Notes under the pieces: generated by a model
The model's input: the letters and a program-made list of their open reading frames with translations, nothing else
Database searches by the model: none
What the model was told of the DNA's origin: nothing
Assembly: GCF_002205675.1 (NCBI RefSeq)
Contig: NZ_NISK01000002.1
Coordinates: forward strand, 186,001-250,000
Direction of reading: 5' to 3'
DNA: 64,000 nucleotides
From: Sphingopyxis bauzanensis
GTDB taxonomy: Bacteria > Pseudomonadota > Alphaproteobacteria > Sphingomonadales > Sphingomonadaceae
Position numbers and translations under genes: made by a program
Shown: positions 25,365 to 58,985 of the stretch, in pieces
How positions within the stretch are numbered: the first letter of the stretch is position 1
Layout of the letters: every line of letters begins with the position of its first letter

Positions 25365-27827
25365 TCAAGCTGCGCCGGACGCGAACCCGTAGCGCTCGCG
25401 GACAGGTCCGCGCCGAAGGGCGAGTACCGCGATCGCGGCGCCTGCAACCAGATTGGCGATCAGATGATCCACCGATGCGCCGAGCAGCATGGGCGCCGCG
25501 GCCACCGCGACGCCGCACGGGATCAGCAGGAAGCGAGCGATCCGGCTAATCTCCGCCGCCGCAAGCGCGACGATCGTCAGACTGACTAATCCCAAAGCAT
25601 GATCGGCGTGCGCTGCGGAGCCTTCGGCGCCCCAGGTCAGTGGCGTGAACAGCAAGGATGCCCCGATCAATCCGGCAGCAAGCAAGTTCCACGGCAGATT
25701 GACGCCGCCGCCCAGCATATCGCGTGCGATCGCTCCCGGACGACGCGCGAATTCGTCAGCGTCGTCTCGCGATCCCGCCGCATCGGCATCGCCGAACAGG
25801 AAGACACGCAGCCAGCTTTGCCCCTGCCCAGCGCGGCGGCGCACGAACTGGATGGTCGCGACGAGCTCATCGACCGCATAGGGTATTTGCAGCAGCATCG
25901 CCGCGGCCGCGACGAGGGTCAGCGTGGCCCAGGTCCCGATGACGATCGGCTGGATGATGACGAATGAAATCGACACGATGCTCAGCGGTACGATCATCAG
26001 TCCGAACAGGAACACCAGCCAGGGCATGGTGCGCCAGCGGGCGCGCGACCCGACGATCCCGGTGACGATTTCGAGCGCATAGGTATAGCCGCCGAGAGCG
26101 GCATCGGGGATCGGAAAACTCTCTGAAACGAAGGAGGTGATGACCGCCTCGGTACCATTCTTGGCCGGTTCTTCGGGCAGGCCGGCAAAAAAGGGATCCC
26201 AGACGCTGTCGATCTGGCCGAGCTGATAGGCGGTGAGATAGCGCGCGATCACCAGCCCGATCAGGGCAAGCAGGATGATCGGAATGCGCTGGCTCCAGGC
26301 CGAGGGATTGTACGACCAGCCGGCGGGCACGCTCGACCGGTCGGTAGCCGCCACCATCGACGGACCGGGTTCGGGGCGTCCGCCCACGGCAAAGGAAAAG
26401 ACCAGCATGCCGATCAGCGTGTCGGAAAGAAACGCCGCTGCGTTGCCGGTCCAGAACACAAAGGGCGCGGCCATCAGCAGCGCGCCTACGCCGGCGGACG
26501 CCCAGCGCGCCCAGATCATGCGCCAGGACAGCGCGAACGCGGCGAACAACATCAAGGCGGCCCCGAGGATAAGCTCACTCCATAACAGCAAGGGCTCGGT
26601 GACCTGCAGAATGAACGGCTGGGTAAAGATCCAGAAGCCAAGGCCGATATTGGCGAAGTGCATCCAACGGGTGCCAGCATGATCGGCGCGCCGCGCCGCT
26701 TCATAGTCGCGCCGCAAATTTTCCGGATCCAGACCCGCCGCCCCCGCCTCCTCGACGAACGGCGGCGGGGTGATGCGGTTGGCGGCGTACCAGGCGGCGG
26801 GATCGGCCTTCAACTTCGCTACGATCCCGGGCAGTTCGTCCGCCAGCCGATGGCGCGGCCGCCAGCCCAGCAGTTGTCGCGCGCGGCGAATATCAAGGGC
26901 ATAATGATCGCTCGCCATCCGGGTCATGAACGGCTGGATGAAGGGCCGTTCGCCGGCGTCGATCGCATCGGGAACCAGCGGTTCCGCCTTGTCCTGCAGC
27001 CATGCCCCCGCCGCGGCGGCAGATGCCGGCAAGCGAAGGGTAGCCCAGTCTTCTTCGCCGTGGATCAGGGCTCCCAGGCGGTCCTGCAACGCGCCATAGC
27101 CGAGCGCCTCCTCCTCGCCGATCAGGATCGCGGTTTCTCCGGGGAGCGATTGCCGGCGGTCGATGGTCCGTACGAACGCATCGACCAGATCCTCGCGGTG
27201 GACCATCGCCTGCCCGGCGTCGGTGTCGCCCGAATAAAAATGGCTCTGCAGGTCGCGTTCGTAAATGCGGGCGATCTGCTGCGCGAAGGTTGGGACCGAC
27301 GTATCGGAGTCATAGAGGCCCGCAAGGCGCAGCAGCACCAGCGGCGTGTCGCCGCGCTCCGCGCGAAGTACCTCCTCCGCTGCGGCTTTCGAGCGCGGAT
27401 ATGCCCATTGCGGGTCGATCGACGTCGTCTCGTCGATCCGCTCGCCGGGCGCACCCGGCGCATGGACGAGCATCGTGCCCGCATAGACGATCTGCTCGAC
27501 CTCGAAATCGCGCAAGGCGCGCAGCAGATGCCGGCTGCCGTCGACATTCACGGCTTGATATTGCGGTTTGTCCTCGCCGCTGAAATCGAAAAAGGCGGCG
27601 AGATGCACCACGCAGGCCAGCCGATCGCCAAAATCGCTGCGCACCCGCGCCAGCGCATCGGCCGTATCCTGCACATCAGTCAGATCGATCGCATAGATCG
27701 GAAAGCCCAGATCCGGCGTGTCGGTGTCGAGGCCGACGACGGTATAGCGGTCGCGCAGCGCCGCGGCGATCGAGCGCCCAAGATTGCCGGCAGCGCCCGT
27801 GATCAGCACGATGGGTTTGTCTGTCAT
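25365..27827 (-). CDS. SDR-SPW-VKOR-like three-part fusion membrane protein
   Basis: 820 residues. Residues 1 to about 300 are an extended NAD-dependent epimerase/dehydratase: ITGAAGNLGRSIA, then VVHLAA, then YPRSKAAAEE with the Tyr-x3-Lys pair. Residues about 385-480 carry two SPW-type helical hairpins (GLGFWIFTQPF, GALLMAAPFVFW). Residues about 520-690 resemble the VKOR-like membrane domain of such fusions (DAALGGYTYALEIVTG, SRARWRTMPWLVFLFG). The segment expected to carry CTLC reads GTWATLTLVAAAAMLLQIPY, so the redox cysteines are gone. A final helical region of about 100 residues follows. Function unknown; disulfide chemistry is unlikely. Confidence 0.75.
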   Translation of the reverse strand: MTDKPIVLITGAAGNLGRSIAAALRDRYTVVGLDTDTPDLGFPIYAIDLTDVQDTADALARVRSDFGDRLACVVHLAAFFDFSGEDKPQYQAVNVDGSRHLLRALRDFEVEQIVYAGTMLVHAPGAPGERIDETTSIDPQWAYPRSKAAAEEVLRAERGDTPLVLLRLAGLYDSDTSVPTFAQQIARIYERDLQSHFYSGDTDAGQAMVHREDLVDAFVRTIDRRQSLPGETAILIGEEEALGYGALQDRLGALIHGEEDWATLRLPASAAAAGAWLQDKAEPLVPDAIDAGERPFIQPFMTRMASDHYALDIRRARQLLGWRPRHRLADELPGIVAKLKADPAAWYAANRITPPPFVEEAGAAGLDPENLRRDYEAARRADHAGTRWMHFANIGLGFWIFTQPFILQVTEPLLLWSELILGAALMLFAAFALSWRMIWARWASAGVGALLMAAPFVFWTGNAAAFLSDTLIGMLVFSFAVGGRPEPGPSMVAATDRSSVPAGWSYNPSAWSQRIPIILLALIGLVIARYLTAYQLGQIDSVWDPFFAGLPEEPAKNGTEAVITSFVSESFPIPDAALGGYTYALEIVTGIVGSRARWRTMPWLVFLFGLMIVPLSIVSISFVIIQPIVIGTWATLTLVAAAAMLLQIPYAVDELVATIQFVRRRAGQGQSWLRVFLFGDADAAGSRDDADEFARRPGAIARDMLGGGVNLPWNLLAAGLIGASLLFTPLTWGAEGSAAHADHALGLVSLTIVALAAAEISRIARFLLIPCGVAVAAAPMLLGASVDHLIANLVAGAAIAVLALRRGPVRERYGFASGAA

Positions 27828-34554: not shown

Positions 34555-34776
34555 GGCGACCCTCCATTTTCTTGTCGATTGGACCTCGATTCGCTGTGGA
34601 TCCACCCTACGCAAGGTCGTCGCCGGAAAAGCTAAACCATGTTGCAAAATCGCCGCGCAACCTGCCGCCTCTTGTTAACCTGGGTCAGCGTTGCAGGGCC
34701 TCCCGCCAAGCGTCGACAAATGAAGACGATATCTGCCCGCGGCCGAACCTTCGCGGCGCGCGCGCGTTTCGCCGAT

Positions 34777-36387
34777 ATGAACAGCCCTCCGAGCACCGAA
34801 GACAAGGCGCGGCCCTGGTGGGCAACCGGCGTCATCTATCAAGTTTATCCCCGTTCGTTTCAAGACAGCAGCGGCGACGGCGTCGGCGACCTCGACGGCA
34901 TCCGCGAGCGGCTGGACTATATCCAGACGCTCGGCGTCGATGCGATCTGGCTGTCACCGATCTTTCCCTCGCCAATGGCGGACTTCGGCTATGACGTTAC
35001 GGAATTTTGCGACATCGATCCTATGTTCGGCGACCTTGCCGCCTTTGATCAATTGCTTCGGGAGGCGCACGCCCGCCGCCTCCGACTACTGCTTGATCTT
35101 GTCCCCAACCACAGTTCGATCGAGCATCCCTGGTTCAAGGAGAGCCGCGCCTCGCGCGACAGCGCGCGGCGCGACTGGTATTTCTGGCGCGACCCGGCAC
35201 CCTGTGGCGGCCCGCCAAACAACTGGATGAGCGACATGGGCGGCTCGGCATGGGAATATGATGCGGCGACGGGCCAATATTATCTCCACAGCTTTCTCAA
35301 GGAGCAGGCCGACCTCAACTGGCGCAATGAGGAGGTGCGCGCCGCGATGACCGACGTCCTTCGCTTCTGGTTCGATCGCGGCATCGATGGCTTTCGTATC
35401 GACGTATTGTGGCACTGCATCAAGGCAGCAGACCTGCCCGACAACCCGCCCAACCCCGCCTTTTCGTCCGACCAAGGCGAGAAGTTCATGGTACTTCAGC
35501 AGCATTCGACGAACCAGCCCGAGATCCATGAGATCGCGCATGCGTTTCGCACCCTCGCCGACAGCTATGGGGAGCGGCTGCTTGTCGGTGAAATCTGCCT
35601 GCCGCTCGATCAGCTCATGACCTATTATGGCCAACCCGATACGCCGGGCGTCCATCTACCTTTCAATTTCCAGCTGTTGGACGCGCCTTGGGATGCGAGA
35701 GTGATCGCGCAACTTGTCCAGAATTATGAAGCGGCGCTCCCCGACGGGGCCTGGCCAAACTGGGTGCTCGGCAGCCACGATGCGCCGCGCATTGCCGGCC
35801 GCCTCGGTGAAGCGCAGGCGCGTGTTGCAGCCATGCTGCTGCTGACCCTGCGCGGTACGCCGACCCTGTATCAGGGCGATGAACTGGGCATCGGCCGCGT
35901 GGCGATCCCGACTGACCGCATCCGCGATCCGCAGGATTTGCGCCAGCCGGGGCTCGGGCTCGGCCGTGACGGCGCGCGGACCCCCATGGCCTGGAATAAC
36001 CAGATAAACGCCGGGTTCAGCGATACCGAACCCTGGCTGCCACTGCACGATGACTGGCCGAGCCGGAATGTGCGCGCGCAGGCGGCAGACCCGCACTCGA
36101 TGCTGAACCTTTATCGACAGTTGCTTGCGCTGCGGCGTGTCCATCCCGCGCTTGCCGCCGGCCATTTGCGGATCCTGCCTTCCGGGGAGGAGGTCCTGCA
36201 ATATGAACGCCGTATCGGTGATGACTGGCTGATGGTCGCGCTCAATTTCGGCGCGCGCGCCCGCGACGTCCGGTGCGAGCAGGATATGAGATCATATCGC
36301 CTGCTGCTCTCGACGGTCGAACGCAGGACGTTTGACGGCAAGCTCCGGCCAAATGAAGGCGTTCTCCTTGCACGGCGGGCTCGATAA
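34777..36387 (+). CDS. GH13 alpha-glucosidase/amylase-family enzyme
   Basis: 536 residues from the ATG at 34777, just before the usual WWATGVIYQVYPRSF; earlier in-frame ATGs at 34639 and 34720 add unlike sequence. The four GH13 regions are present: DLVPNHS, GFRIDVLWH (nucleophile Asp209), GEICL (acid/base Glu272) and SHDAPR (Asp335). The pattern is that of oligo-1,6-glucosidase or alpha-glucosyl-transferring enzymes. No signal peptide, so cytoplasmic. The stop overlaps the GT4 start (TAATG), so both act on the same saccharide; trehalose, sucrose or a glucosyl-osmolyte are possible. Confidence 0.88.
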   Translation: MNSPPSTEDKARPWWATGVIYQVYPRSFQDSSGDGVGDLDGIRERLDYIQTLGVDAIWLSPIFPSPMADFGYDVTEFCDIDPMFGDLAAFDQLLREAHARRLRLLLDLVPNHSSIEHPWFKESRASRDSARRDWYFWRDPAPCGGPPNNWMSDMGGSAWEYDAATGQYYLHSFLKEQADLNWRNEEVRAAMTDVLRFWFDRGIDGFRIDVLWHCIKAADLPDNPPNPAFSSDQGEKFMVLQQHSTNQPEIHEIAHAFRTLADSYGERLLVGEICLPLDQLMTYYGQPDTPGVHLPFNFQLLDAPWDARVIAQLVQNYEAALPDGAWPNWVLGSHDAPRIAGRLGEAQARVAAMLLLTLRGTPTLYQGDELGIGRVAIPTDRIRDPQDLRQPGLGLGRDGARTPMAWNNQINAGFSDTEPWLPLHDDWPSRNVRAQAADPHSMLNLYRQLLALRRVHPALAAGHLRILPSGEEVLQYERRIGDDWLMVALNFGARARDVRCEQDMRSYRLLLSTVERRTFDGKLRPNEGVLLARRAR

Positions 36388-37421
36388 TGCGCATCGCGAT
36401 GCTGGCGCCAATCGCCTGGCGGACCCCGCCGCGGCATTACGGTCCCTGGGAGCTGGTCACCAGCATCCTGACCGAAGCGCTGGTTGCCAAAGGGCTCGAC
36501 GTTACCCTGTTCGCTACGCTGGACAGCGTGACAACCGCCAGGCTCGAGGGGATCGTCCCCGCGCCCTACAGCGAAGACCCGGCGATCGACGCGAAGGTCT
36601 GGGAATATCGCCACCTCGCGCATCTGTTCGAGCGCGCGCACACGTTCGATATCATTCACAATCAGGCTGACTTTCCCGCGCACGCCTTCTCAAGGTTGGT
36701 TGAGACCCCTATTGTCACGACCATCCATGGCTTCTCTTCGGCCCGCATCCTGCCCATGTACAAGCCGTTCGAGGATCGCGTCCATTATGTAGCGATCAGC
36801 GAGGCGGATCGGCATCCGGACTTGCGCTATGCGGCGACCATTCATCATGGCATCGTGCCCGAGGAGTTTCCGCTCGACCTGGTCGGCAGCGAGGATCTCC
36901 TCTACTTTGGCCGCATCCATCCCGACAAGGGCGCAGCAGAAGCGATCGAAGTTGCCCTTAGAGCAGGGCGCCGACTCCATATCTACGGCATCGTCCAGGA
37001 CGAAGAATATCACTTGCGCCATGTCCTGCCCCATGTGGACGGCACGAATATTCTCTATCATGGCCCGGTAGGCGGCGGCGCGCGCGTGGCCGCGCTCGGA
37101 CGCGCGCGCGCCCTTCTGCATATGATCAACTTTGACGAGCCCTTCGGCCTCTCGGTCATTGAAGCGATGGCCTGCGGAACGCCGGTCATCGCGCGGCCGC
37201 GCGGTTCGATGCGCGAGATCGTCGAACACGGCCGAACCGGGTTTCTGGTCGAGGACATCGCATCCGCGGTTCGGGCGGTCGAGGATGTGGGATCCATCGA
37301 CCGTCGCGCAATTTCCGAAAATACCGCACAGCGCTTTTCGGCGCAGCGAATGGCCGACGCATATATTGCCCTCTACCGAAAGATCGGGAACGGCCAACGT
37401 CAGCGACGATCTCGGCCCTGA
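36387..37421 (+). CDS. Family 4 glycosyltransferase
   Basis: 344 residues of the GT-B fold. The N-terminus MRIAMLAPIAWRTPPRHYGPWE is the acceptor side. The donor side has LLYFGRIHPDKGAAEAIEVAL and the nucleotide-sugar motif FDEPFGLSVIEAMACGTPVIA, whose two acidic residues lie in the EPFGLSVIE segment. It is coupled to the GH13 gene through TAATG. The pair may build and trim a glucosylated compatible solute; this is inference. Confidence 0.88.
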   Translation: MRIAMLAPIAWRTPPRHYGPWELVTSILTEALVAKGLDVTLFATLDSVTTARLEGIVPAPYSEDPAIDAKVWEYRHLAHLFERAHTFDIIHNQADFPAHAFSRLVETPIVTTIHGFSSARILPMYKPFEDRVHYVAISEADRHPDLRYAATIHHGIVPEEFPLDLVGSEDLLYFGRIHPDKGAAEAIEVALRAGRRLHIYGIVQDEEYHLRHVLPHVDGTNILYHGPVGGGARVAALGRARALLHMINFDEPFGLSVIEAMACGTPVIARPRGSMREIVEHGRTGFLVEDIASAVRAVEDVGSIDRRAISENTAQRFSAQRMADAYIALYRKIGNGQRQRRSRP

Positions 37422-38728: not shown

Positions 38729-38919
38729 TCTGCCTAACCTTTCCGTCGCTCTTTCTTCAATGCACGCGGGCGGCCCGGGTTTCGCCGCAGCGACAATAAA
38801 CCGGGCGATCGTCGTCGCATCACACGGCCAAAGGGCGCGCGGCCTGCGCCGATCCGCTGACCGCCGCGCAGCCTTGTTTTTTTTGGAACCTTCCCGCCCC
38901 CGGCGCGCGTTGAGAGCTG

Positions 38920-41844: not shown

Positions 41845-42312
41845 TTACCCGCGGATGACATTTTCGCCCTCACCTTCGGGCAGCGCCGCCCCGGCAAAGG
41901 CTGCCATCATGAGCACCAGCTCGTCGCGTGCCTGCGCGCCGCCCCGGCCAGTGCGCATCGCATCGTCGATAAAGTCCGCCAGAAAGGTCTGCGGCCCGCA
42001 ATAGGCCAAGGACCAATGCCCGAAATGGCGCGACCGCGCGCGGTCGTCGCTCAACACGCGAAGATTCTGATGGCGTCCGTCCGCATGAAGTTTCGCCAGC
42101 AGGGCCTCGAGCGCTGCGTCCGGACCTTCGAGAAACTGGACAAAATGCCGTTCGGTAACCATAAGGGCGCCCGTGATCTGCCGGGCGAAATTATTACGCC
42201 GCGACACCGCGACGATCGTCGCCAGTTCCCGCGCAGCAGTATGGTGCGGCAGCAGCGTGTCGCTGATGTAGAGCAAAGCGCGAAGATCGGTCGGGGCAGG
42301 CAGCACGCGCAC
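41845..42312 (-). CDS. BLUF-domain blue-light sensor protein
   Basis: About 155 residues from GTG 42312 (GTG 42306 is equally possible; no clear ribosome site). The flavin-binding BLUF domain spans about 10-105: the flavin tyrosine in RALLYIS (near residue 15), the asparagines in SRRNN, the signalling glutamine in FVQFLEG, and the HFGHWSLAY strand. The remaining C-terminal helix is short, so it is a stand-alone sensor that must signal by protein contact. It is divergent from the Crp-type regulator at 42358. Confidence 0.88.
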   Translation of the reverse strand: MRVLPAPTDLRALLYISDTLLPHHTAARELATIVAVSRRNNFARQITGALMVTERHFVQFLEGPDAALEALLAKLHADGRHQNLRVLSDDRARSRHFGHWSLAYCGPQTFLADFIDDAMRTGRGGAQARDELVLMMAAFAGAALPEGEGENVIRG

Positions 42313-42338
42313 GGAACGAATGAACCGCTTCAAAAGTT
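42313..42338 (+). promoter_or_regulatory. EcfG-like promoter of the Crp-type gene
   Basis: GGAAC (42313-42317), 18 bases, then GTT (42336-42338), with A instead of C before GTT. It lies 19 bases before the ATG at 42358. The site is also nearly palindromic (GGAAC...GTTTCC), so weak divergent use toward the BLUF gene is possible. Confidence 0.5.
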
Positions 42339-42357
42339 TCCTGAGCAACAGGAGGAA

Positions 42358-43083
42358 ATGGTGTCGGACGCGATATCCACCAAAGGATTCTGGACGTCGC
42401 TCGCGGCAAAAAACGGCTTGTCCCAAGACGATCTGGAAGCGCTGCTGTCCTTGCCTGTCAGGCGCCGCAATCTCGGTGCCGGCGCCTCGGTCGCGCGCAA
42501 CAACTCGCCCGCCAAAAGCTGCAGCTTCCTGCTGTCCGGCTTTGCCTATGCGAGCAAATTGCTGCGCGACGGAGCCCGGCAGATCGTTTCGGTCCATGTT
42601 CCGGGCGATTTCGTGACCCTGAGCGGTGTCTTCGAGGCGCCAATCGTCGACGAGATCCGTATGCTCACGCCGGGTACCGTCGCCAGCGTTGCCGCGGGCG
42701 CGCTGCACCACGTGCTGGCATCGCACCCCGCGATCCAGACCGCCTTGTGGCGGCAGACCGCGATCGACGCATCGATTTTCAGCGAGTGGCTGGCGGCCAT
42801 CGGCCGCAGGGACGCACAAAGCCGGGTTGCCCACCTGTTATGTGAATTTGCGGTGCGGCTCCGCGCCGTCGGGCTCACGAACGGCAAAGCGTTCGACCTG
42901 CCGATGACCCAGGCGCAGCTCGCCGATGCGACAGGGCTGACTGCGGTGCATGTCAACCGGGTGCTCAACGCTTTGCGCCAGACGGGGCTGGTCGCCACCG
43001 ACAAGCGGACCATTGCGATCAACGACTGGCCCGGCCTCGTGGCGCTCGCGGATTTCGATTCCGCTTATCTTGGCATGGATTGA
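42358..43083 (+). CDS. Crp/Fnr-family transcriptional regulator (paralogue 1)
   Basis: 241 residues from ATG 42358 (or GTG 42361, better spaced from AGGAGG). The cyclic-nucleotide-like barrel has CSFLLSGFAYASKLLRDGARQIVSVHVPGDFV; the C-terminal winged helix is MTQAQLADATGLTAVHVNRVLNALRQTG. No Fnr-type N-terminal cysteine cluster is present. It is divergent from the BLUF gene and probably works downstream of stress or light input. Confidence 0.88.
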   Translation: MVSDAISTKGFWTSLAAKNGLSQDDLEALLSLPVRRRNLGAGASVARNNSPAKSCSFLLSGFAYASKLLRDGARQIVSVHVPGDFVTLSGVFEAPIVDEIRMLTPGTVASVAAGALHHVLASHPAIQTALWRQTAIDASIFSEWLAAIGRRDAQSRVAHLLCEFAVRLRAVGLTNGKAFDLPMTQAQLADATGLTAVHVNRVLNALRQTGLVATDKRTIAINDWPGLVALADFDSAYLGMD

Positions 43084-43150
43084 CGACCATCTGAGGCTGG
43101 CGGGGATCCATGCCTCATACCAATTGCAATCGGGTGCAATCCAGACGCAT

Positions 43151-45142
43151 TTACATTGCGGCGCGCGCCACCTCGCGCACCGCGCCTGCCAGTTCCGCCA
43201 CCCGGAACGGCTTGGAAAGGCGCGCGACATTAGCACCGGTCCCGGCGATGTCGGCAAAACCCGTGATCATCAGGATCGGGATGCTCGAGCGAACCTTGCG
43301 CGCCGCGGCGGCAAGCTCGAGGCCGTTCATTGCCGGCATGAGATAATCGGTAATGATCAGGTCGAAGGGCCGGGCGCGAAACAGGTGCAAGGCCGTTTCT
43401 CCCGATCCGGCCTGGACAACCTCATGCCCCATGTCTTCCAATATCGCCGCTGTACTCGACCGCGCCGGTTCCTCGTCATCGACCAGCAGGACCGTCAATG
43501 AGGGCGTGACGGCGATCGCGCGATCAATTTGCGGCGGGGGCGACAGCGCCGCGGCGGCGGCGGCCGGAAGCCAGATCTCGGCGGTCGTGCCGGCGCCTGC
43601 TTCGCTCATGAGACGCAGGCGGCCGCCCGATTGCGCGGCGAGGCCATGCACCATCGACAATCCAAGCCCGGTCCCGCGACCGACCCCTTTCGTCGAATAA
43701 AAGGGTTCCACCGCACGCGCCAGCGTCTGCGCATCCATTCCTCCGCCGCTGTCGCTGACCGCGATGCGCACATATTGCCCGGCGGCGAGTTCAGCATCCT
43801 TGTCGACCGCGACCGCATCGACGGCGATCTGCAGGCGCCCACCTTTCGCCATGGCATCCCGGGCGTTGATCGCCAGGTTGAGCAGCGCCAACTCGAGCTG
43901 ATGGGGATCGACCATCGCCGCCGGGAGTTGGTCCGCAGCCTTGACCTCGAGCGCGATCGTCGGTCCGACAGAACGCTGGATGAGATCTGCCATGCCGCCG
44001 ATCAACGCCGCGACATCGACGGGCAGGGTTTCGAGATTCTGGCGCCGGGCAAAAGCCAGCAGCCGCGCCACGAGGGTGCGGGCGCGCTCGGACGCCTGGA
44101 GGGCGCCGTCGACCAGTTTCAGCAGCCGCTCCTCGGAAATCTTCTGCCGGATCAGATCGAGACTGCCGACGATCGGGGTGAGCAGATTGTTGAAGTCATG
44201 CGCGACCCCGCCCGTCAGCTGACCCAGCGTCTCCAGCTTCTGCGCCTCATGCAACTGCGCCATTGCATCGGCATATTCGCGGGTCCGCTCGGCGACCCGC
44301 TGTTCAAGTTCGGCGGCGAAATTGCGCAAGGTTTCCTCCGCCGTCTTGCGCGCGGTGATGTCCTGGCTGACGCCGGTCAAGCCAAGCACGCCGCCAGCGG
44401 CATCGAACTGCGGACGACCGCGAACCTGCACCCAGTGAAGCGATGCATCGGGCCACCTGCAGCGATATTCGACATCATAATCGGCCCCGGTCGCGAGCGA
44501 GCGACGAATTTCGCTCTTCATCAGCTCCCGGTCGTCGGGATGCACGCAGGCTATTAGATCGTCATAGGTAAAATCGTCTTCGGCGCGCAGGCCATATTGG
44601 GCCTTGCAATCCTTCGAGGCGTCGAGCCGCATGGCCGCGAGATCAAACGACCAGGCGCCGAGTTTGCCCGCCGCGAGCGCGACGCGCAGCTGCTGCGCGC
44701 CCTCGCGAATTTCTTCAAGGCGGGTGCGCGCATCATATTGGCGGCGGCGTCCGCGCAGCGCTGCCTTGGCGGCGCTGATCAGTGACGTGGGATGAAAGGG
44801 CCGCTCGAGAAAGGTGACATTGCCGAGCAGCTCGAGATAACGCCCGGCGGCCGGGTTGCGCTCAATGCTTCCGCCGCGCTCGGTCAGCAAAATGAAGGGA
44901 AAATCCGACCATTCGCCCTGCGCCTGAAGAAATCCGGCGATCCCGCGCAGATCGGCGCCGGCCAGCGCGTCGTCGGTGACCAGCGCAAAGGCAGCGCCGG
45001 CATGAAGCTCCTTCACCAGCTGTGGCAGGGCCAAGGCAGTCACGCTATCGATCGCCGCCTCGCGCAAGATCGCCCCGGCTATGTCCGCGTCGCGTCCGCG
45101 CGGTGCCAGGATGATGGCGCGCTCGGAAAGGGTGGCATTCAT
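43151..45142 (-). CDS. PAS hybrid histidine kinase with C-terminal receiver
   Basis: 663 residues from the ATG at 45142. Order: a degenerate receiver-like domain (about 8-125), a PAS domain with PAC segment (about 150-270, ending GVSQDITARKTAEE), a coiled linker, HisKA with His315 (GGVAHDFNNLL), HATPase (NLAINARDAM, GRGTGLGLSMVHGL), and a receiver (about 545-660) with Asp599 (LIITDYLMP). No membrane helices, so it is a soluble sensor. It overlaps the KaiC-like gene (TGATG), which points to a shared pathway. Confidence 0.92.
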   Translation of the reverse strand: MNATLSERAIILAPRGRDADIAGAILREAAIDSVTALALPQLVKELHAGAAFALVTDDALAGADLRGIAGFLQAQGEWSDFPFILLTERGGSIERNPAAGRYLELLGNVTFLERPFHPTSLISAAKAALRGRRRQYDARTRLEEIREGAQQLRVALAAGKLGAWSFDLAAMRLDASKDCKAQYGLRAEDDFTYDDLIACVHPDDRELMKSEIRRSLATGADYDVEYRCRWPDASLHWVQVRGRPQFDAAGGVLGLTGVSQDITARKTAEETLRNFAAELEQRVAERTREYADAMAQLHEAQKLETLGQLTGGVAHDFNNLLTPIVGSLDLIRQKISEERLLKLVDGALQASERARTLVARLLAFARRQNLETLPVDVAALIGGMADLIQRSVGPTIALEVKAADQLPAAMVDPHQLELALLNLAINARDAMAKGGRLQIAVDAVAVDKDAELAAGQYVRIAVSDSGGGMDAQTLARAVEPFYSTKGVGRGTGLGLSMVHGLAAQSGGRLRLMSEAGAGTTAEIWLPAAAAAALSPPPQIDRAIAVTPSLTVLLVDDEEPARSSTAAILEDMGHEVVQAGSGETALHLFRARPFDLIITDYLMPAMNGLELAAAARKVRSSIPILMITGFADIAGTGANVARLSKPFRVAELAGAVREVARAAM

Positions 45143-46665
45143 CAAGCAGACGGATCCATCTGCATGTCGGGCGCGCCGCTGGTGATGAACTCGGGAACCC
45201 CGCGCAAGACCCCCTGGAAGCCGGTAAGCGGTTCGCCAAGGGTGATGCCCTGCGCACCAATCCGATATTCGCGGATCGTATATTCATGCGCGCCAGTGCG
45301 CTTTTTCATCACCGAAATTGCGCGGCGAACGCGCCCGGCCGCTTCGAAATAGCGCAGGAGCACGACGGTGTCGGCGAGATAGGTTACGTCGACCGGCGAC
45401 TTCATGTCGCCGACCAGCCCGTGCTGCGCGACGGTGAGAAAGGTGACCACGCCCTGACGGTTCAGATATTGGAGCAGTTCATGCATGTGGAGAATGAGGG
45501 CGGTTTCTTCGGGCATCGCAGCCTGGAACCCGTTCAAACTGTCGATGACTACGGTCTTGGCGTCATATTCTTCGACGCAGTGACGCACGCGCTGCGAAAA
45601 TTCGCCGGGGGACATTTCGGCGGCATCGACCTGCTCGATGATGAGGCCGCCGCTGTCGACCATCGCCTGAATGTCGATCCCCAGGCCTTTTGCACGGGCG
45701 AACAGCAGACCGAGTTCCTCATCAAAGACGAACATCGCCGCTTTGCCGCCGCGGCGGATCGTGCTCGCGACAAAACTGAGCGCAAACAGCGATTTGCCGG
45801 TTCCGGATGGGCCGAGGATCAGCGCACTCGATCCGGTCTGGAAGCCGCCGCCGAGCAAAGCATTGAGTTCCTCGCTGTCGGTGGGCGCCGGCTTGCGTTC
45901 GAAGTCGGTCTTGTGCTCAAGCGATACGAGGCGCGGGAAGACGCGAACCCCGCCCGTTTCGATCACGAAATCATGATAGCCGCCGCGAAACTTCTGGCCG
46001 CGATATTTGAGCACCCGCAAGCGTCGGCGTTCGGCGCCATAGTCGGGCGACATCTCCTGCAGGCGGATGACGCCATGGGCAACGCTGTGCACCGTTTTGT
46101 CAGCGCTCTCCGACGTCAGGTCGTCGAGCATCAACACCGTCGCGTCGCGGTGGGCAAAATAATGTTTGAGCGACAGTATCTGCCGCCGATAGCGCAGCGA
46201 GCCCTGCGCCGGCAGCCGGATCTCCGACAGGCTGTCGAGCACCACCCGGTCGGGTTTGACCTCCTCATAGACTTGCAGGATGCGCTTGGTGGTTTCGCCC
46301 AGTTCGAGGTCGGAGGAGTAGAGCAAGCTTTGCTGCTGCTCGTCGTTTAGCAGGGCTTCGGGCGGGACCAGCTCAAAGATATGAAAATTGGTGGGCAGAT
46401 CCCAGCCGTGCGACCTGGCCGTCTCGCGCAATTCGTCTTCGGTCTCCGATAGCGTGATATACAGGCAGCGCTCGCCCGCCTCCGCGCCGGCGAGCAGAAA
46501 CTGGGTGGCGATTGTCGTCTTGCCAGTCCCGGGGTCGCCTTCCATGAGGAAAATGCGGCCGCGGGTGAAGCCTCCTGCGGTGATATCGTCGAGGCCCTCA
46601 ACGCCGGTGAGCGCCTTCGCGGCGCGCCCTGCGCCAATTCCGGCCTGATCCGCTGCTTTTTTCAC
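45142..46665 (-). CDS. KaiC-like double RecA ATPase
   Basis: 507 residues from GTG 46665 (GGGAG ten bases upstream). Two KaiC domains: Walker A GDPGTGKTTIA (about 43-53) and GPSGTGKSLFA (about 285-295), with Walker B-type VVLDSLSE and VVIDSLNG. The first domain keeps an SETEDELRE segment typical of KaiC. No kaiA or kaiB gene is in the window. With the overlapping hybrid kinase it resembles the KaiC-plus-kinase modules of non-photosynthetic proteobacteria that time or tune stress signalling; that role is inferred. Confidence 0.9.
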   Translation of the reverse strand: MKKAADQAGIGAGRAAKALTGVEGLDDITAGGFTRGRIFLMEGDPGTGKTTIATQFLLAGAEAGERCLYITLSETEDELRETARSHGWDLPTNFHIFELVPPEALLNDEQQQSLLYSSDLELGETTKRILQVYEEVKPDRVVLDSLSEIRLPAQGSLRYRRQILSLKHYFAHRDATVLMLDDLTSESADKTVHSVAHGVIRLQEMSPDYGAERRRLRVLKYRGQKFRGGYHDFVIETGGVRVFPRLVSLEHKTDFERKPAPTDSEELNALLGGGFQTGSSALILGPSGTGKSLFALSFVASTIRRGGKAAMFVFDEELGLLFARAKGLGIDIQAMVDSGGLIIEQVDAAEMSPGEFSQRVRHCVEEYDAKTVVIDSLNGFQAAMPEETALILHMHELLQYLNRQGVVTFLTVAQHGLVGDMKSPVDVTYLADTVVLLRYFEAAGRVRRAISVMKKRTGAHEYTIREYRIGAQGITLGEPLTGFQGVLRGVPEFITSGAPDMQMDPSA

Positions 46666-46757
46666 GCCAAATGTCTCCCACAGTCGCACTGCGACAACAG
46701 ATGGATCGAGCAGGCGACGCTAGGTTGAGCCCGCGCGCCGGTCGGCCATTTACTGGG

Positions 46758-47147
46758 TCAAGAATGATTGACCGGCGCTTCGGGTTCCCGGGCAGTGCGT
46801 TCCAGCAGCGGGGCAAGGCCCGACCGCAAATCTTCAAGATTGAAAGGTTTAGCCAGCACGGGCCGCCCGCGCCAGGCGGGCCCCGCCTCTCCGACAAAGC
46901 CGCCCGTGGCGACGAGAAACGGAATTGCACGATCGGCCAGGGCCATTGCGATGGCATCGGCCATCTCGCCATTGGCCAGATGCACATCGACCACGGCGAC
47001 GTCGATCCCGCCCAGCGCGATACGTTCAAGCGCGGCGCCGACGCGATCGACAATCGCGGCGGTTTGATGGCCGAGTATGTCCACAAATTCTTCGAGCAGC
47101 AGGGCGATGAACGCATCGTCTTCCACGATCAGAACCTGCTTGCTCAT
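46758..47147 (-). CDS. Single-domain response regulator
   Basis: 129 residues from the ATG at 47147 (GAGAG upstream); longer frames upstream are not receiver-like. The receiver has the acidic pair VEDD (near 9-11), phospho-acceptor Asp54 (VAVVDVHLAN) and the lysine of LAKPFN. There is no output domain. It lies just upstream of and in line with the KaiC-like/hybrid-kinase genes, so it probably receives phosphate from that kinase. Confidence 0.88.
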   Translation of the reverse strand: MSKQVLIVEDDAFIALLLEEFVDILGHQTAAIVDRVGAALERIALGGIDVAVVDVHLANGEMADAIAMALADRAIPFLVATGGFVGEAGPAWRGRPVLAKPFNLEDLRSGLAPLLERTAREPEAPVNHS

Positions 47148-47352: not shown

Positions 47353-47631
47353 TCAGTTCCCCGGCCGAGCCACATAGGCACGCATTTTTTCGACCAGACA
47401 CCGCTGTTCGGCAATCTTGTCGCGCAGCGCATGCCGCGCGTGCGGCGCCGGGCTCGTTGTCTCGACCGCGATGGCGGCGAGCGCTTGATGGTCCAGGTGA
47501 TGCAGATGCCGCAGCTCAGCTTCGGCGTCGCTCAGAAATTGTTCGAACAGGTTCGATCCACCTTCGCTTGCTGGCGATGGTCGCTGCGAGCTGCGGGGCC
47601 CCATCGGGGCAGGCCGGTTCGGATCAGGCAT
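47353..47631 (-). CDS. Hypothetical small protein after the alcohol dehydrogenase
   Basis: 92 residues from the ATG at 47631, which overlaps the end of the dehydrogenase gene by eight bases. A helical, His-rich segment (FEQFLSDAEAELRHLHHLDHQALAAI) and ALRDKIAEQRCLVEKMRAYV are visible. No family recognised. The stretch from 47148 to 47352 shows no gene. Confidence 0.5.
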   Translation of the reverse strand: MPDPNRPAPMGPRSSQRPSPASEGGSNLFEQFLSDAEAELRHLHHLDHQALAAIAVETTSPAPHARHALRDKIAEQRCLVEKMRAYVARPGN

Positions 47632-48841
47632 CGGCCATGGCGTGCGCGTTCTGAACAATCGTCTTTTCAAGCCCGGGCTTGAGGATGATCTTGGTGTAAT
47701 CATCCTGATCGTCGTGCCAATGCCGGTACATCGCCGCGGCGTCTTCGAGCGGCGCGTGATGCGACACCAGCGAGGTCATGTCGAACTTGCCATCGCGGAT
47801 CATGTCGAGCAGCTCGCCGGTATAGCGCTGCACATGGGTCTGTCCGCTTTTGACGGTGAGACCTTTTTCCATCAGCTGACCGAGCGGAAATTTGTCGGCA
47901 AAGCCGCCATAGACGCCCGGTATCGAAACTCGGCCACCCTTGCGGCAGGCAAGGATCGCCTGGCGCAGGGCGTGCGGTCGGTCGGTGACACTGTAGAACT
48001 GGGCTTTGACCTGGTCGAGGATATTGTCGAGTGTGAAGCCGTGGCTTTCCATGCCAACGCAATCGATGCAGGCGTCGGGGCCGATGCCGCCGGTCATCTC
48101 GTCGAGCGCTTCGCGAACATTGACCTGCCGATAGTCCAGAATCTCGGCACCGAGCGATTTGGCGAGCGCGAGGCGCGCGGGGAAATGGTCGATCGCGATG
48201 ACTCGGTCGGCGCCGAGCAGCCTTGCCGACTGGATCGTGAACAGCCCCACAGGCCCGCAGCCCCAGATCGCAACTGTGTCGCCGGGTTCGATGTCGGCGT
48301 TGATCGCAGCCTGCCAGCCTGTCGGCAGAATGTCGGATAGAAAGAGGACGTCCTCGTCGGCGAGATCGTCGGGAATGATGACCGGGCCGATATCCGAATA
48401 CGGCACACGGACATATTCGGCCTGACCACCGGCATAGCCGCCGGTCAGGTGGGCATAACCGAATGCCGAACCCATCGCATGACCCATGAGAAGTTCGGAG
48501 GCATCCCGCGTTTCGGCGGGGTTGGCGTTGTCACAGGCGCTAAATTGCTGTTTTTCGCAAAAGAAGCACTGCCCGCAGCTGATCGTGAACGGTATGACGA
48601 CGCGCTGGCCCTTCTTCAACGAAGAGCCGGAACCCACGTCCACCACTTCGCCCATGAACTCATGGCCGACGATGTCGCCGGCGCGCATGCCGGGAATATA
48701 CCCATCATAAAGATGAAGGTCGGAGCCGCAGATTGCCGTTGAAGTCACACGCAAAATGGCGTCGCGGGGGTTGACGATTTCGGGATCGGGGACGGTTTCT
48801 ACACTGATCTTATGACGTCCCTGCCAAGTGACTGCACGCAT
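47624..48841 (-). CDS. Zinc-dependent alcohol/formaldehyde-type dehydrogenase
   Basis: 405 residues from the ATG at 48841 (GAGGAG upstream). MDR family: catalytic zinc Cys in AICGSDLHLYDG, GHEFMGEVVDVG, a structural zinc cluster CGQCFFCEKQQFSAC, and the Rossmann motif GCGPVGLFTIQSA. The pattern matches the glutathione-independent formaldehyde dehydrogenase-like group. It probably detoxifies aldehydes. The SRPBCC gene precedes it by 10 bases and is likely co-transcribed. Confidence 0.9.
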   Translation of the reverse strand: MRAVTWQGRHKISVETVPDPEIVNPRDAILRVTSTAICGSDLHLYDGYIPGMRAGDIVGHEFMGEVVDVGSGSSLKKGQRVVIPFTISCGQCFFCEKQQFSACDNANPAETRDASELLMGHAMGSAFGYAHLTGGYAGGQAEYVRVPYSDIGPVIIPDDLADEDVLFLSDILPTGWQAAINADIEPGDTVAIWGCGPVGLFTIQSARLLGADRVIAIDHFPARLALAKSLGAEILDYRQVNVREALDEMTGGIGPDACIDCVGMESHGFTLDNILDQVKAQFYSVTDRPHALRQAILACRKGGRVSIPGVYGGFADKFPLGQLMEKGLTVKSGQTHVQRYTGELLDMIRDGKFDMTSLVSHHAPLEDAAAMYRHWHDDQDDYTKIILKPGLEKTIVQNAHAMADA

Positions 48842-51443: not shown

Positions 51444-51551
51444 GCGATCAACCGGTCACGGAAATTGCTCCAGGTTAAGGCATTCGCGCGCAACCGCGGC
51501 GGGCCGCGTGCCGTTGCTGCGACACGGGCAGGGCTGAACAAGGAGTGCGAC

Positions 51552-52049
51552 ATGACCAGCAGAACCGATCGCGACGCGACCCATATTCTCGCTACGGACC
51601 ACCGCGAGGTCGAGCGGCTGTTCGACACGTTCGAAAAAGCGCGCGACAGCGACAAAAAGCAGGCAATTGCCGAGCAAATTTGCACGGAACTCAAGATCCA
51701 TGCGCAGATTGAAGAAGAAATATTCTACCCCGCGCTTCGCGGCAAGATCGACGAGGATCTGCTCAACGAGGCTTATGTCGAGCATGACGGGGCGAAAACG
51801 CTGATCAACGAAATCATGGCCGGCGGATCCGACGACGCCTTCTATGACGCCAAGGTCACCGTGCTCAAGGAACAGATCGAGCATCATGTCGAGGAAGAGG
51901 AAAAGATGCGCGGCAATATGTTCCAGCAGGCGCGCGCAGCAGATATCGATCTCGAAGCGCTCGGCGACGCGATGCTGGCGCGAAAACAGGAACTCAAAAC
52001 GCTTGCCGAGAGCGAAGGGCTGCCACCGGCCCAGCCCGTAACCATGTGA
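51552..52049 (+). CDS. Hemerythrin HHE-domain protein
   Basis: 165 residues from the ATG at 51552 (AGGAG eight bases upstream). Four-helix bundle with di-iron ligand candidates in DHREVERLF, HAQIEEEIFYPAL, EHDGAKTLI and HHVEEEEKM. Such proteins bind O2, NO or iron and are often stress-induced. A CCAGGTTAAGG motif lies at 51470-51480. Its TGA overlaps the GTG start of the cinA-like gene (GTGA). Confidence 0.88.
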   Translation: MTSRTDRDATHILATDHREVERLFDTFEKARDSDKKQAIAEQICTELKIHAQIEEEIFYPALRGKIDEDLLNEAYVEHDGAKTLINEIMAGGSDDAFYDAKVTVLKEQIEHHVEEEEKMRGNMFQQARAADIDLEALGDAMLARKQELKTLAESEGLPPAQPVTM

Positions 52050-52636
52050 CAATCATGGTCACCCCGTACCGACGCGATATCGACAATTGCGCCCACGAAC
52101 TGGCGGCGGCCCTCGCGGGCAGCGAATTGCGCATTGTGACGGCTGAAAGCTGCACCGGCGGCCTGCTCGCCGCTCGGCTGGCCGGGGAACCGCGTCTCGG
52201 TCCGCATCTGGACCGCGGTTATATCGTCTATTCGCCGCGTTCGAAGATTGAGGTCCTAGGCGCTCACCCCGCCGAGGTGGCCTGTTCGGACGCGGTGAAC
52301 ATGGCCGTGACCTTGAGCCTTGCGCGCGGGGCGCTCGCACGGAGCGGAGCCGATATTGCCACAGCTGTCACCGGATTTTGCGGCCCGCAACAAGCGCAGG
52401 AAGAGGTGGGCCTGGTTCATATCGCCTGCGTTCCGGAGGCGTCTCCGCCCGAGACGGCGACCTACCATTTCGGCGATATTGGCCGCGAGCATGTGCTCGA
52501 GCGCGCGACGGCGGCGGCACTCGCGCTGACGACGCGCGTGGTGCGGCGGCGCCGCGCTAGCAAGCCGCCGGCCGGCATTCCGGTGTCGCGGTGCGATGCC
52601 CCGGGGCCGCTAGTCCCGCCCCCGCAGCCGTCATAG
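52046..52636 (+). CDS. CinA-type (NMN amidohydrolase) domain protein
   Basis: 196 residues from GTG 52046 (ATG 52055 also possible). The CinA C-terminal domain keeps TAESCTGGLLAARL with the catalytic serine, GYIVYSPRSKIEVLG with the lysine, and AVTGFCGPQQAQEEVGLVHIA. The usual N-terminal MoCF domain is absent, as in PncC-type deamidases of pyridine-nucleotide salvage. The last 80 bases overlap the convergent Crp gene. Confidence 0.85.
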   Translation: MTIMVTPYRRDIDNCAHELAAALAGSELRIVTAESCTGGLLAARLAGEPRLGPHLDRGYIVYSPRSKIEVLGAHPAEVACSDAVNMAVTLSLARGALARSGADIATAVTGFCGPQQAQEEVGLVHIACVPEASPPETATYHFGDIGREHVLERATAAALALTTRVVRRRRASKPPAGIPVSRCDAPGPLVPPPQPS

Positions 52637-53309: not shown

Positions 53310-53374
53310 GGGCGCTCCTGGCCCCCCGCTCCTCCGGAACATGCCACCGCATCCACCCTCGTTCCTTAACGCAT

Positions 53375-56497: not shown

Positions 56498-56902
56498 ATG
56501 AGAGAGCAAGCTTTCGACCTATCGCTACGGCAGGACGCCAATGCCCCACGCCCGGCGAGGCAATCGGGAATACGCGCGACCTACACGCTGCGTTACGAGG
56601 ATGACGCACTCGGAATTGAAAAACGCATCGAGTTTGAGGCGGTCAGCGCCGCCTACGCGCTCGAGATCGCCCGCGCCGAGGCCGAAGGCCGGCGGGCGCT
56701 TCTCCTCGAAAACGGTCGGCCGCTTTGCCGACTGGTGAAAGCGCTTGCCGGCGACGCGCCTTACTGGATCGTCGCGGACCGGCCGACATTCGACAACCCA
56801 GCCGACCCCAGTGAAGTTGCCAATTCAGCGAGAGGAATGACTTATGGCTCGATCGACGTCCGCCAAAGCCCCGGCCAGCAAGAGCGTGAAGACGCCCCCT
56901 GA
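56498..56902 (+). CDS. Hypothetical protein overlapping the catalase start
   Basis: 134 residues. The middle ([54 protein letters not shown]) looks like a compact alpha/beta domain; no family recognised. The 3' 59 bases overlap the catalase gene, whose ATG is 56844. It is probably co-transcribed with both neighbours. Confidence 0.65.
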
Positions 56903-58985
56903 CGCGGCCTTCGATGAACCGCTTGGTGATGGCGGTGAGACGCACCAGCAGACGAGCGACCCGGGGGCGACGCTCACCACGCAGCAGGGCCATCCCGTCG
57001 CCGACGATCAGAACAGTCTGCGCGCGGGCCCGCGGGGCCCGACGCTCCTCGAGGATGCCATTCTTCGCGAGAAAATCTTTCATTTCGACCATGAGCGTAT
57101 TCCCGAACGGGTTGTGCATGCGCGTGGATATGGCGCGCGCGGCGAGTTCAGGCTGACCAAGTCACTTGCGCGCTATACCCGCGCCGACATTCTCACCGAC
57201 ACCAAGCAGCCGACCGAGGTGTTTGTTCGCTTTTCAACCGTTGTCGGCCGCGCAGGGTCGTTTGATCTGGCCCGCGACGTCCGCGGCTTTGCGGTCAAGC
57301 TGTATACCCGGCAGGGAAACTGGGATCTGGTCGGCAATAATATCCCGGTGTTCTTTATTCAGGACGCGATCAAATTTCCCGATCTTGTCCACGCCGTAAA
57401 GGAAGATCCCGATCGCGCCTTCCCACAGGCCCAGTCGGCACATGACACGTTCTGGGACTTTGCATCGCTCATGCCCGAGAGCTGGCACATGATCATGTGG
57501 CTGATGTCGGACCGCGCCATCCCGCGCTCGTTCCGCACGATGGAAGGCTTTGGTGTGCACAGCTTCCGGCTCGTCAACGCCAAAGGCGAGTCGACCTTCG
57601 TCAAATTCCACTGGAAGCCGCGGCAAGGTCTGCAATCGGTGCTGTGGAACGAGGCCGTGAAGATCAATGGCGCCGATCCCGATTTCCACCGCCGGGACCT
57701 GTGGGACGCGATCGAACGCGGCGATTTTCCGCAATGGGATCTTGGCGTCCAGCTATTCGACGAAGCGACGGCTGCTGCGCTTCCCTTCGATCATCTCGAT
57801 GCCACCAAGCTCATTCCCGAGGAGCTGGTGCCAATCGAGATTGTCGGCACGCTGACCCTCAATCGCAACGTCGACAATTTCTTTGCCGAGACCGAGCAGG
57901 TCGCCTTTTGCACCCAGAATGTGCCGCCGGGCATCGACTTCAGCGACGATCCGCTGCTCCACGGGCGCAATTTCTCCTATCTGGACACGCAGCTCAAGCG
58001 CCTCGGCAGCCCCAATTTCACGCAATTGCCCGTGAACGCGCCGCGCTGCCCGGTCATGCATTTCCAGCAGGATGGGCATATGGCGATGGTCAATCCGACA
58101 GGCCGCGCCAATTACGAGCCCAACAGCTTCGACGCAGGGACGCCGCGCGAAAATCCCGACGTAGGGTTTCGCAGTTTTGCGGCGCCGGTCGATGGCGTGA
58201 AAGCGCGGATCCGCTCCGAAAGTTTCGCCGACCATTATAGCCAGGCGCGGCAATTTTTTGCGAGCCAGTTGCCGATCGAGCAAAAACATCTGGGCGACGC
58301 GCTCGTGTTCGAACTGAGCAAATGCGTGCGGCCGGACATTCGCGCCCGCGCGGTCTCGCATCTGCGCAACATTGATGAGACGCTAGCCAAGTCGGTGGCG
58401 GACGGTCTCGGACTGACGCTTCCGGAGCCCGCGGTTGCAGCGCAGCCGACGCGCGAGCTGGACCGGTCGCCAGCGCTCAGCATATTGGCGAATGGTCCGA
58501 ACGGCTTCAAGGGGCGGAAAATGGGCCTGTTGCTCAGCGACGGCGCTCCTGCGCCGCTGGTCGCCGCGCTGACGTCGGCGGTCGAGAAAGCCGGCGCAAT
58601 CTGGGAGGTGGTGGCGCCGAAGATTGGCGGGGTGCGGCTCGACGACGGCACCATGCTGGCGGCGCAGCAGAAAATAGACGGAGGCCCGTCGGTACTTTTC
58701 GATGCCGTCGCGGTGCTGCTCTCGGCCGAGGGGGCGCAGGCGCTTTCGATCGACGCGGCAGCGAAAGATTTCGTGTCCGACGCATTTGCCCACTGCAAAT
58801 ATATTGCCTTTAATGCCGCAGCAGCGCCACTCTTCGATGCGGCGCGCCTTCCGCCCGACCGCGACGAAGCCGTCGTGCCCGTACAAAAGGAAAAGGACGC
58901 GGCCGCTTTCGTCAAAGCATGCGGTGCGCTTCGCTTCTGGCCGCGCGAGGCCATGGTCGATTATGACAGCGCCGTGTCCAGATGA
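56844..58985 (+). CDS. katE: Large-subunit catalase (HPII/KatE type)
   Basis: 713 residues from ATG 56844 (AGAGG eight bases upstream). Active-site His92 ([14 protein letters not shown]), the haem-ligand Tyr379 ([14 protein letters not shown]), and the haem-pocket [20 protein letters not shown] are all present. The extra C-terminal domain (about 550-710) is the flavodoxin/DJ-1-like part typical of clade 2 catalases. It dismutates H2O2 in the cytoplasm and is a common general-stress target. Confidence 0.95.

Follow-up and report, generated by a model that had tools for sequence, protein, structure and literature searches.

A KaiB-less KaiC and a histidine kinase with a predicted pseudo-receiver domain as a conserved gene pair with a putative EcfG-type promoter in Sphingopyxis bauzanensis

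The locus considered here is a group of five genes between positions 41845 and 47147 of a 64,000-nucleotide stretch (the window) of contig NZ_NISK01000002.1, from the 4.26-Mb genome of Sphingopyxis bauzanensis (GCF_002205675.1). Following the coordinates upwards, the genes encode a BLUF-type sensor (minus strand), a transcription regulator of the Crp/FNR type (plus strand), and a hybrid histidine kinase, a KaiC-like double ATPase and a single-domain receiver, all three on the minus strand (Table 1). The initial annotation of this DNA had taken the five genes for one light- and time-sensing cluster, and Pfam matches together with open reading frames (ORFs) place all of them where it had put them, including the receiver ahead of kaiC and the EcfG-like motif of the divergent BLUF-crp pair, which precedes crp. 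Likewise, the overlap proposed for kaiC and the kinase gene is seen in their stop and start codons, which share bases (TTGATG), with one base shared between the kaiC stop and the alternative ATG of the kinase. Two features had been overlooked: a conserved domain of about 140 residues at the N-terminus of the kinase, and a GGAAC-N17-CATT motif directly before kaiC.

Table 1. Genes, domains and promoter-like motifs of the locus, in window coordinates
Feature	Position	Strand	Remarks
Stand-alone BLUF blue-light sensor	41845-~42333	-	PF04940, E 1.2e-23; start codon uncertain
EcfG-like motif GGAAC-N18-GTT before crp	42313-42338	+	Also before crp in genome G792
Crp/FNR-type transcription regulator	42358-43083	+	Divergent from BLUF; adjacent to but outside the KaiC unit
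Hybrid histidine kinase	43151-45145	-	Pseudo-receiver, PAS_3, HisKA, HATPase_c, Response_reg; TTG start, or ATG at 45142
Kinase pseudo-receiver domain, proposed KaiC-docking domain	44723-45142	-	Family motif APxGRDA ... TEEAL ... QPxWSDxP ... LERP
KaiC-like double RecA-type ATPase	45142-46689	-	515 aa from GTG; two PF06745 domains, E 1.5e-76
KaiC PF06745 domains	45931-46608 and 45232-45885	-	Pfam
EcfG-like motif GGAAC-N17-CATT before kaiC	46763-46788	-	Overlaps the last codons of the receiver gene
Single-domain receiver, SdrG-like	46758-47147	-	Motif PFLVATGG; 52/113 aligned residues identical to SdrG (PDB 5ieb)

The KaiC of the window departs from that of the KaiABC circadian clock in two respects. 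Aligned with S. elongatus KaiC, it carries T-Y instead of a Ser-Thr pair at the positions of S431/T432, and a search of the whole genome at E-values up to 0.1 returned no KaiB match (0/1 genome), in agreement with the absence of kaiB claimed at the outset; KaiA was not searched for. Additionally, the first member of the CII catalytic acid pair is Asp. A kaiB-less kaiC paired with a kinase termed Nt_HK has been described as the "second (dark-blue) kaiC context" (De Luca et al., 2011; PMC3164672), and the window shows the same arrangement, i.e., a KaiC of the TY, SY or SF type (here TY), next to it a kinase whose N-terminal domain is conserved, and no KaiB match in the genome. Those authors likened the domain to KaiB and SasA (10 and 16% identity), reported a further 19% identity to a receiver, detected cotranscription by RT-PCR in Ramlibacter and proposed an hourglass role. 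Judged by context and sites, not by sequence comparison with Ramlibacter, the domain studied here is probably the same as their RtaNt. The type of gene pair is thus already known, and the revised part is its mechanism; the EcfG promoter, the co-variation and the receiver partner discussed below do not figure in the section of De Luca et al. on this context.

The association between this KaiC and the kinase domain is strict. When the KaiC was queried against 149 genomes of the family, 38 matches were found in 32 genomes and the surroundings of all 38 were fetched. At the 32 loci (own included) where KaiC identity is at least 42%, the next gene opens with the same N-terminal domain; the six remaining KaiC (L067-L072) are distant (27-31%), are not followed by that kinase domain and were left out of the counts. 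KaiB was found in two of the 34 genomes with this KaiC type (G084 and G134), both times as the gene next to another, distant KaiC. In a separate collection of named genomes, the domain lies directly after KaiC in 80 of 80 (the best 80 of at least 429 candidates), among them sphingomonads, rhizobia, Bosea, Brevundimonas, Methylobacterium, Pseudomonas, Caballeronia and Cupriavidus, and it does so at 10 of 10 further loci of the genus. Conversely, when the domain served as query against 289 genomes of the class, 17 matches fell outside the family, every one adjoining KaiC. Taking all sets together, the domain is reached no more than 500 nt downstream of KaiC at 139/139 loci of this KaiC type. KaiC was the sole criterion of choice for 122 of them, namely the 32 of the family, the 80 from named genomes and the 10 of the genus, and the domain for the other 17; three are near-duplicates, leaving a non-redundant set of 136. 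These neighbour counts stand apart from five weak family matches to the domain (E 1e-8 to 1e-6) and from 37 of the 41 places returned by a phylum search with it. Within the genus, KaiC is matched at E 1e-30 or better in 9 of 80 genomes, own included, and a plasmid search returned 10 records with short pieces, none spanning 80% of the query.

What follows the N-terminal domain varies: 32 kinases carry behind it HisKA (28), HATPase_c (28), a receiver (27), various PAS models (1-16 each), GAF (4) or HWE (2); in the window, the C-terminal receiver matches Response_reg at E 1.2e-19. The conserved unit is KaiC plus kinase only, smaller than the five-gene cluster first proposed: of that cluster, KaiC and kinase stay together throughout, the receiver accompanies them in part (three of five close relatives) and BLUF and Crp form a separate pair. 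Some variants of the arrangement were also seen. The distant KaiC of L068, L070 and L072 (28-30% identical) are followed by a receiver-like match or a small receiver gene, not a kinase; in four Methylobacteriaceae loci (L136, L147, L172 and L173) the pseudo-receiver protein after kaiC is only about 360 aa long; and at L091 and L093 (genomes G055 and G140) such proteins occur without a full KaiC alongside, L093 having just upstream a KaiC fragment of 33% identity over residues 37-154.

Pfam gave no match over the N-terminal 140 or so residues of the window kinase. An AlphaFold2 model built from a 32-row alignment (pLDDT 90.1) alternates strands and helices, and the Foldseek and VIA-align rows shown for it are nearly all response-regulator receivers (best Z 15.8, rmsd 2.4 over 128 residues), one exception being 8e9g_O, annotated as a respiratory complex chain. 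In a profile search the receiver RR468 was matched at E 2e-4, its phospho-Asp aligned with the first acid of "TEEA". That column holds, in the 139 loci, most commonly Glu (93), followed by Asp (20), Ala (13), Ser (5) and His (3); the column of the receiver Lys is Arg in 137, Ser in one and a gap in one, never Lys; and APxGRD occupies the place of the acidic pair of receivers. A Trp-Ser-Asp motif hardly varies, with W in 138 loci, S in 136 and D in 135. Because a receiver fold is predicted and the phosphorylation site is degraded (Lys replaced by Arg, the acidic pair replaced), the domain is, as far as the model goes, a pseudo-receiver. This differs from the reading of De Luca et al. (PMC3164672), since both the predicted order of strands and helices and the profile matches indicate a receiver and not the thioredoxin-like N-terminal domain of SasA. 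In the open-licence literature searched, no paper was found that names this domain a pseudo-receiver.

Domains of this kind are known from clock proteins. The pseudo-receivers of Synechococcus CikA and KaiA are likewise tied to a KaiC system, that of CikA being part of a histidine kinase; however, the CikA pseudo-receiver is C-terminal to the kinase and binds KaiB, whereas that of the window is N-terminal in a genome with no KaiB match (PMC6378743; PMC12632262). SasA is similarly a histidine kinase with a KaiC-binding N-terminal domain, although a thioredoxin-like one as opposed to the receiver-like domain predicted here (PMC6378743).

If the domain is a partner of KaiC, the two should have diverged together, and pairwise distances agree with this. 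The rank correlation between KaiC and the domain is 0.80, next to 0.83 between the CI and CII halves of KaiC, while KaiC and the kinase core give 0.28, and the domain and its own kinase core 0.23 (n=121, the loci of the 139 with a usable core). When the 80 named loci are set aside (n=47), the values become 0.77 for KaiC-domain, 0.72 for CI-CII and 0.45 for KaiC-core; with near-duplicates removed (n=122), 0.80 for KaiC-domain compares with 0.27. The KaiC-domain correlation lies above all 300 permutations, and in a bootstrap over 124 loci, in which a core outside the same frame was allowed, it exceeds the KaiC-core correlation by 0.53 (0.41 to 0.64). Since its distances barely track those of its own kinase core, the domain probably does not mainly serve its own kinase, and the co-variation suggests that this disabled receiver is the partner of KaiC. 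A further hint comes from KaiC itself, where the CI B-loop region is replaced by a clade-specific conserved stretch, QSLLYSSDLELGET in the window, which ends in ELGET in many members. The B-loop of CI is where KaiB and SasA bind cyanobacterial KaiC (PMC6378743), and our guess is that the altered stretch is a putative docking site for the pseudo-receiver.

An alternative account, which we regard as unlikely, is that KaiC and the kinase are independent stress genes sharing an operon, with the pseudo-receiver regulating only its own kinase and the co-variation due to linkage. It would have precedents, as ShkA and CikA each carry a pseudo-receiver that inhibits the kinase it belongs to (PMC12632262), and the exchange of the core while the 5' part of the gene stays with kaiC is what intragenic breakpoints would yield. 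However, a regulator of its own kinase would be expected to vary with that kinase, which the coefficient of 0.23 does not bear out, and the pair has been kept together across alpha-, beta- and gammaproteobacterial genomes.

The motif before kaiC would connect the pair with the general stress response. EcfG, a sigma factor exclusive to Alphaproteobacteria (PMC3892343), acts on promoters of the form GGAAC-N17-20-GTT in Sphingomonas melonis (PMC6599016) and GGAAC-N16-CGTT in Sphingopyxis granuli, with -10 variants including CATT, TGTT and GGTT (PMC7083833), and the site before kaiC conforms to this pattern (GGAAC, a spacer of 16-20, and GTT or a -10 variant such as CATT). The 300 nt before the conserved start of KaiC were scanned for GGAAC-N16/17-(NGTT or CATT), with the expectation taken from random, mostly coding, stretches of the same loci. 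The 80 named loci were assigned to alpha or beta/gamma by organism name and the rest by kinship to the family or class of the window, this class being inferred from named relatives to be Alphaproteobacteria. Of 113 alpha loci, 25 have the motif ahead of kaiC in the sense direction, as against five antisense and 0.8 expected; the 26 beta/gamma loci have none. Over spacers of 4 to 33, spacer 17 stands out with 18 sense and no antisense hits, all spacers except 16 and 17 giving 0-4 sense hits. GGAACC...CATT is kept in all five relatives with 86-89% identical KaiC despite diverged flanking DNA (6/6 with the window); outside these six genus loci, 19 of 107 alpha loci have the motif, compared with a mean of about 2.1 per two-spacer bin. 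An earlier motif set without CATT missed the site of the window and gave 18 of 113 alpha loci sense, three antisense and 1.1 expected, again with 0/26 in beta/gamma. Two PhyR-family genes score above the model cut-off in the genome. Taken together, these data suggest, from sequence, that the general-stress switch turns on the KaiC-kinase pair. The stress link of the initial annotation thus stands in a different form: it had let a timing output feed stress control, and the motif supports chiefly control of kaiC by the stress sigma factor. The promoter of the window may be weak, because a change from CGTT to CATT lowered transcription in S. granuli (PMC7083833). No paper reporting EcfG control of kaiC was found in the open-licence literature searched, and the word KaiC is absent from the main texts of PMC6599016, PMC7083833 and PMC4814048.

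The receiver upstream of kaiC adds a possible route back into that network. It falls below the Pfam cut-off for Response_reg (E 6.6e-4), and its nearest solved relative, at E 1.1e-25, is SdrG of S. melonis Fr1, a receiver in the general-stress phosphorelay (PMC5898713). SdrG is a single receiver too, that of the window being set apart by adjoining kaiC and by its motif, which is one position off the PFxFATG[G/Y] of the SdrG-type (FAT GUY) receivers (a motif taken from a reference title). An intact copy stands immediately ahead of kaiC in L177, L180 and L181, three of the five close relatives; L179 has only a C-terminal remnant there, and in L178 it is missing before kaiC, with a 48% relative past the kinase on the other strand. 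This distribution makes it a feature of the locus in the genus and not of the locus in general. The three best receiver matches in the genus (67, 62 and 56%) are those before kaiC, relatives of about 50% occurring elsewhere in other genomes. No EcfG motif was seen in the 300 nt before the receiver gene of the window (spacers 15-19 to GTT); in L180 and L181, GGAAC-N18-GTT lies 86 nt ahead of their own receiver genes.

On this basis we consider it fairly probable that the locus encodes a KaiB-less KaiC signalling pair with docking through a pseudo-receiver, under EcfG-dependent expression in a share of Alphaproteobacteria including this genus. The two proteins would be co-expressed from overlapping or abutting frames, in some Alphaproteobacteria from a general-stress EcfG promoter. 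KaiC, presumably an ATP-driven ring as in the rest of its family, would bind the kinase via the N-terminal pseudo-receiver, which would stand in for the thioredoxin-type docking of cyanobacterial KaiB and SasA, and its nucleotide or phosphorylation state would then set histidine kinase activity. The sensor and catalytic parts behind the pseudo-receiver would have been exchanged between lineages, and the output would pass through the receiver of the kinase itself and, in the genus, probably through the SdrG-like receiver to the stress network. The role would most likely be an energy- or state-dependent gain control of the stress response. More tentatively, and with the odds somewhat against it, the pseudo-receiver could be a KaiB-free partner of KaiC throughout Pseudomonadota, docking on the ring, perhaps at the altered CI B-loop, and gating the fused kinase, with the stress sigma factor making the pair in the alpha lineage; on that reading, a clock-type ATPase would have turned there into an adjustable brake or timer for the stress response. 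Relatives of KaiC occur widely in bacteria without KaiA and KaiB, and the matter of what they signal to becomes open to direct tests through a defined partner domain of 140 residues, easily expressed, together with a gene pair that is strictly kept and a stress promoter that is predicted; the question then shifts from whether there is a clock to what KaiC tells this kinase.

Several observations weigh against this proposal. Four of the 36 strong family matches to the domain (E <1e-28) are not beside a full KaiC: that of G140 adjoins a KaiC fragment, that of G097 sits on a contig of just 4.5 kb, that of G055 shows no KaiC across 12 kb, and the surroundings of that of G003 were not fetched. At the phospho position, the domain of the window has Asp, not Glu. 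The KaiC-core correlation also lies above all 300 permutations, and the pseudo-receiver is nearer to kaiC on the DNA than the core is, such that some of the co-variation could stem simply from where recombination broke the DNA. Regarding the promoter, CATT was admitted only after the site of the window had been seen, and spacer 16 is hardly strand-biased (7 sense vs 5 antisense), for which reason the signal rests on spacer 17; moreover, in 88 of the 113 alpha loci the motif is absent from the 300 nt scanned, so the EcfG link is not universal. Finally, physical docking, the direction of control, phosphotransfer and EcfG dependence are deduced from the sequences.

The same data bear on an hourglass or proto-circadian timer, the reading raised by the initial annotation and by De Luca et al., in which slow ATP hydrolysis or phosphorylation by KaiC would measure time and the kinase would report it. 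Both KaiC domains are retained, T-Y, S-Y or S-F occupies the two phospho positions in 132 of the 136 non-redundant loci (TY 108, SY 21, SF 3, other or unread 4), and the phospho-Ser of Methylobacterium extorquens KaiC2 matters for plant colonisation (PMC8069551). Nevertheless, the missing KaiB match, the Tyr at the second phospho position and the Asp as first CII catalytic acid speak against a timer, and the promoter motif suggests stress control rather than regulation by time of day. We therefore hold this reading to be improbable, even more so than that of two independent genes; circadian timing as such is possible, if unsupported. Stress phenotypes of kaiC have been described elsewhere. In M. 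extorquens AM1, kaiC2-kaiR2, which by its description resembles the window in that a kaiC with one conserved phospho-Ser lies beside kaiR without kaiB, shows ultraviolet and temperature phenotypes (PMC8069551), and stress phenotypes of kaiC mutants are also reported second-hand for Pseudomonas (PMC11832031).

BLUF and Crp make up a second, neighbouring unit that is possibly stress-linked. The BLUF protein matches the BLUF domain of AppA (E 3.7e-11). In G792 the same divergent pair recurs (Crp 62% and BLUF 43% identical), separated from kaiC by about 8 kb that include a BrkB relative. GGAAC-N18-GTTTC stands ahead of crp in both genomes and occurs seven times in the 4.0 million strand-bases fetched, in which overlapping loci are counted repeatedly. 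In this regard, a cAMP-binding (Crp-like) protein is among the top EcfG-regulated genes of S. melonis (PMC6599016). Such a Crp was found within 1.5 kb on either side neither of three other BLUF genes of the genus nor of the two further BLUF copies of this genome.

That BLUF and Crp feed KaiC in a single light-and-time cluster, as initially proposed, is in our view highly improbable. Proximity would favour it, crp ending 68 bp from the kinase gene and BLUF being 0.8 kb off, as would the pair in G792. Yet BLUF is matched in only 5 of 80 genus genomes, against 9 of 80 for KaiC; of the five relatives whose KaiC is 86-89% identical, all but G792 are without a BLUF match at E 1e-15; and none lies near KaiC at the 37 other family loci fetched, where Crp is found only at L056 and L069. 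The 10 further genus loci add only weak Crp matches (31-38%) in L181-L183. The light-and-time cluster was rejected as a unit on these grounds, no BLUF match accompanying KaiC at the family loci fetched besides the window, and four of its five nearest relatives having none.

The wider surroundings of the locus include an alpha-amylase and a glycosyltransferase (34639-37421), a Zn-dependent alcohol dehydrogenase (47624-48841) and a catalase (56844-58985). Similar gene names appear among the top EcfG-regulated genes of S. melonis (PMC6599016), and the area may be a general-stress neighbourhood; GGAAC-N17-20-GTT was not seen within 450 nt before any of these genes. A GGAAC-N19-GTT site lies at 38885-38911 (plus strand), 35 nt ahead of a sulfotransferase start, and at 53336-53365 GGAAC...GTT can be read on both strands across nearly the same 30 bases. 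Hemerythrin and CinA genes (51465-52636, plus strand) have relatives also near kaiC in the genus members L177 and L178. Farther away, positions 25365-27827 (minus strand) encode an 820-aa protein that combines an epimerase-like domain, SPW repeats and a vitamin K epoxide reductase domain.

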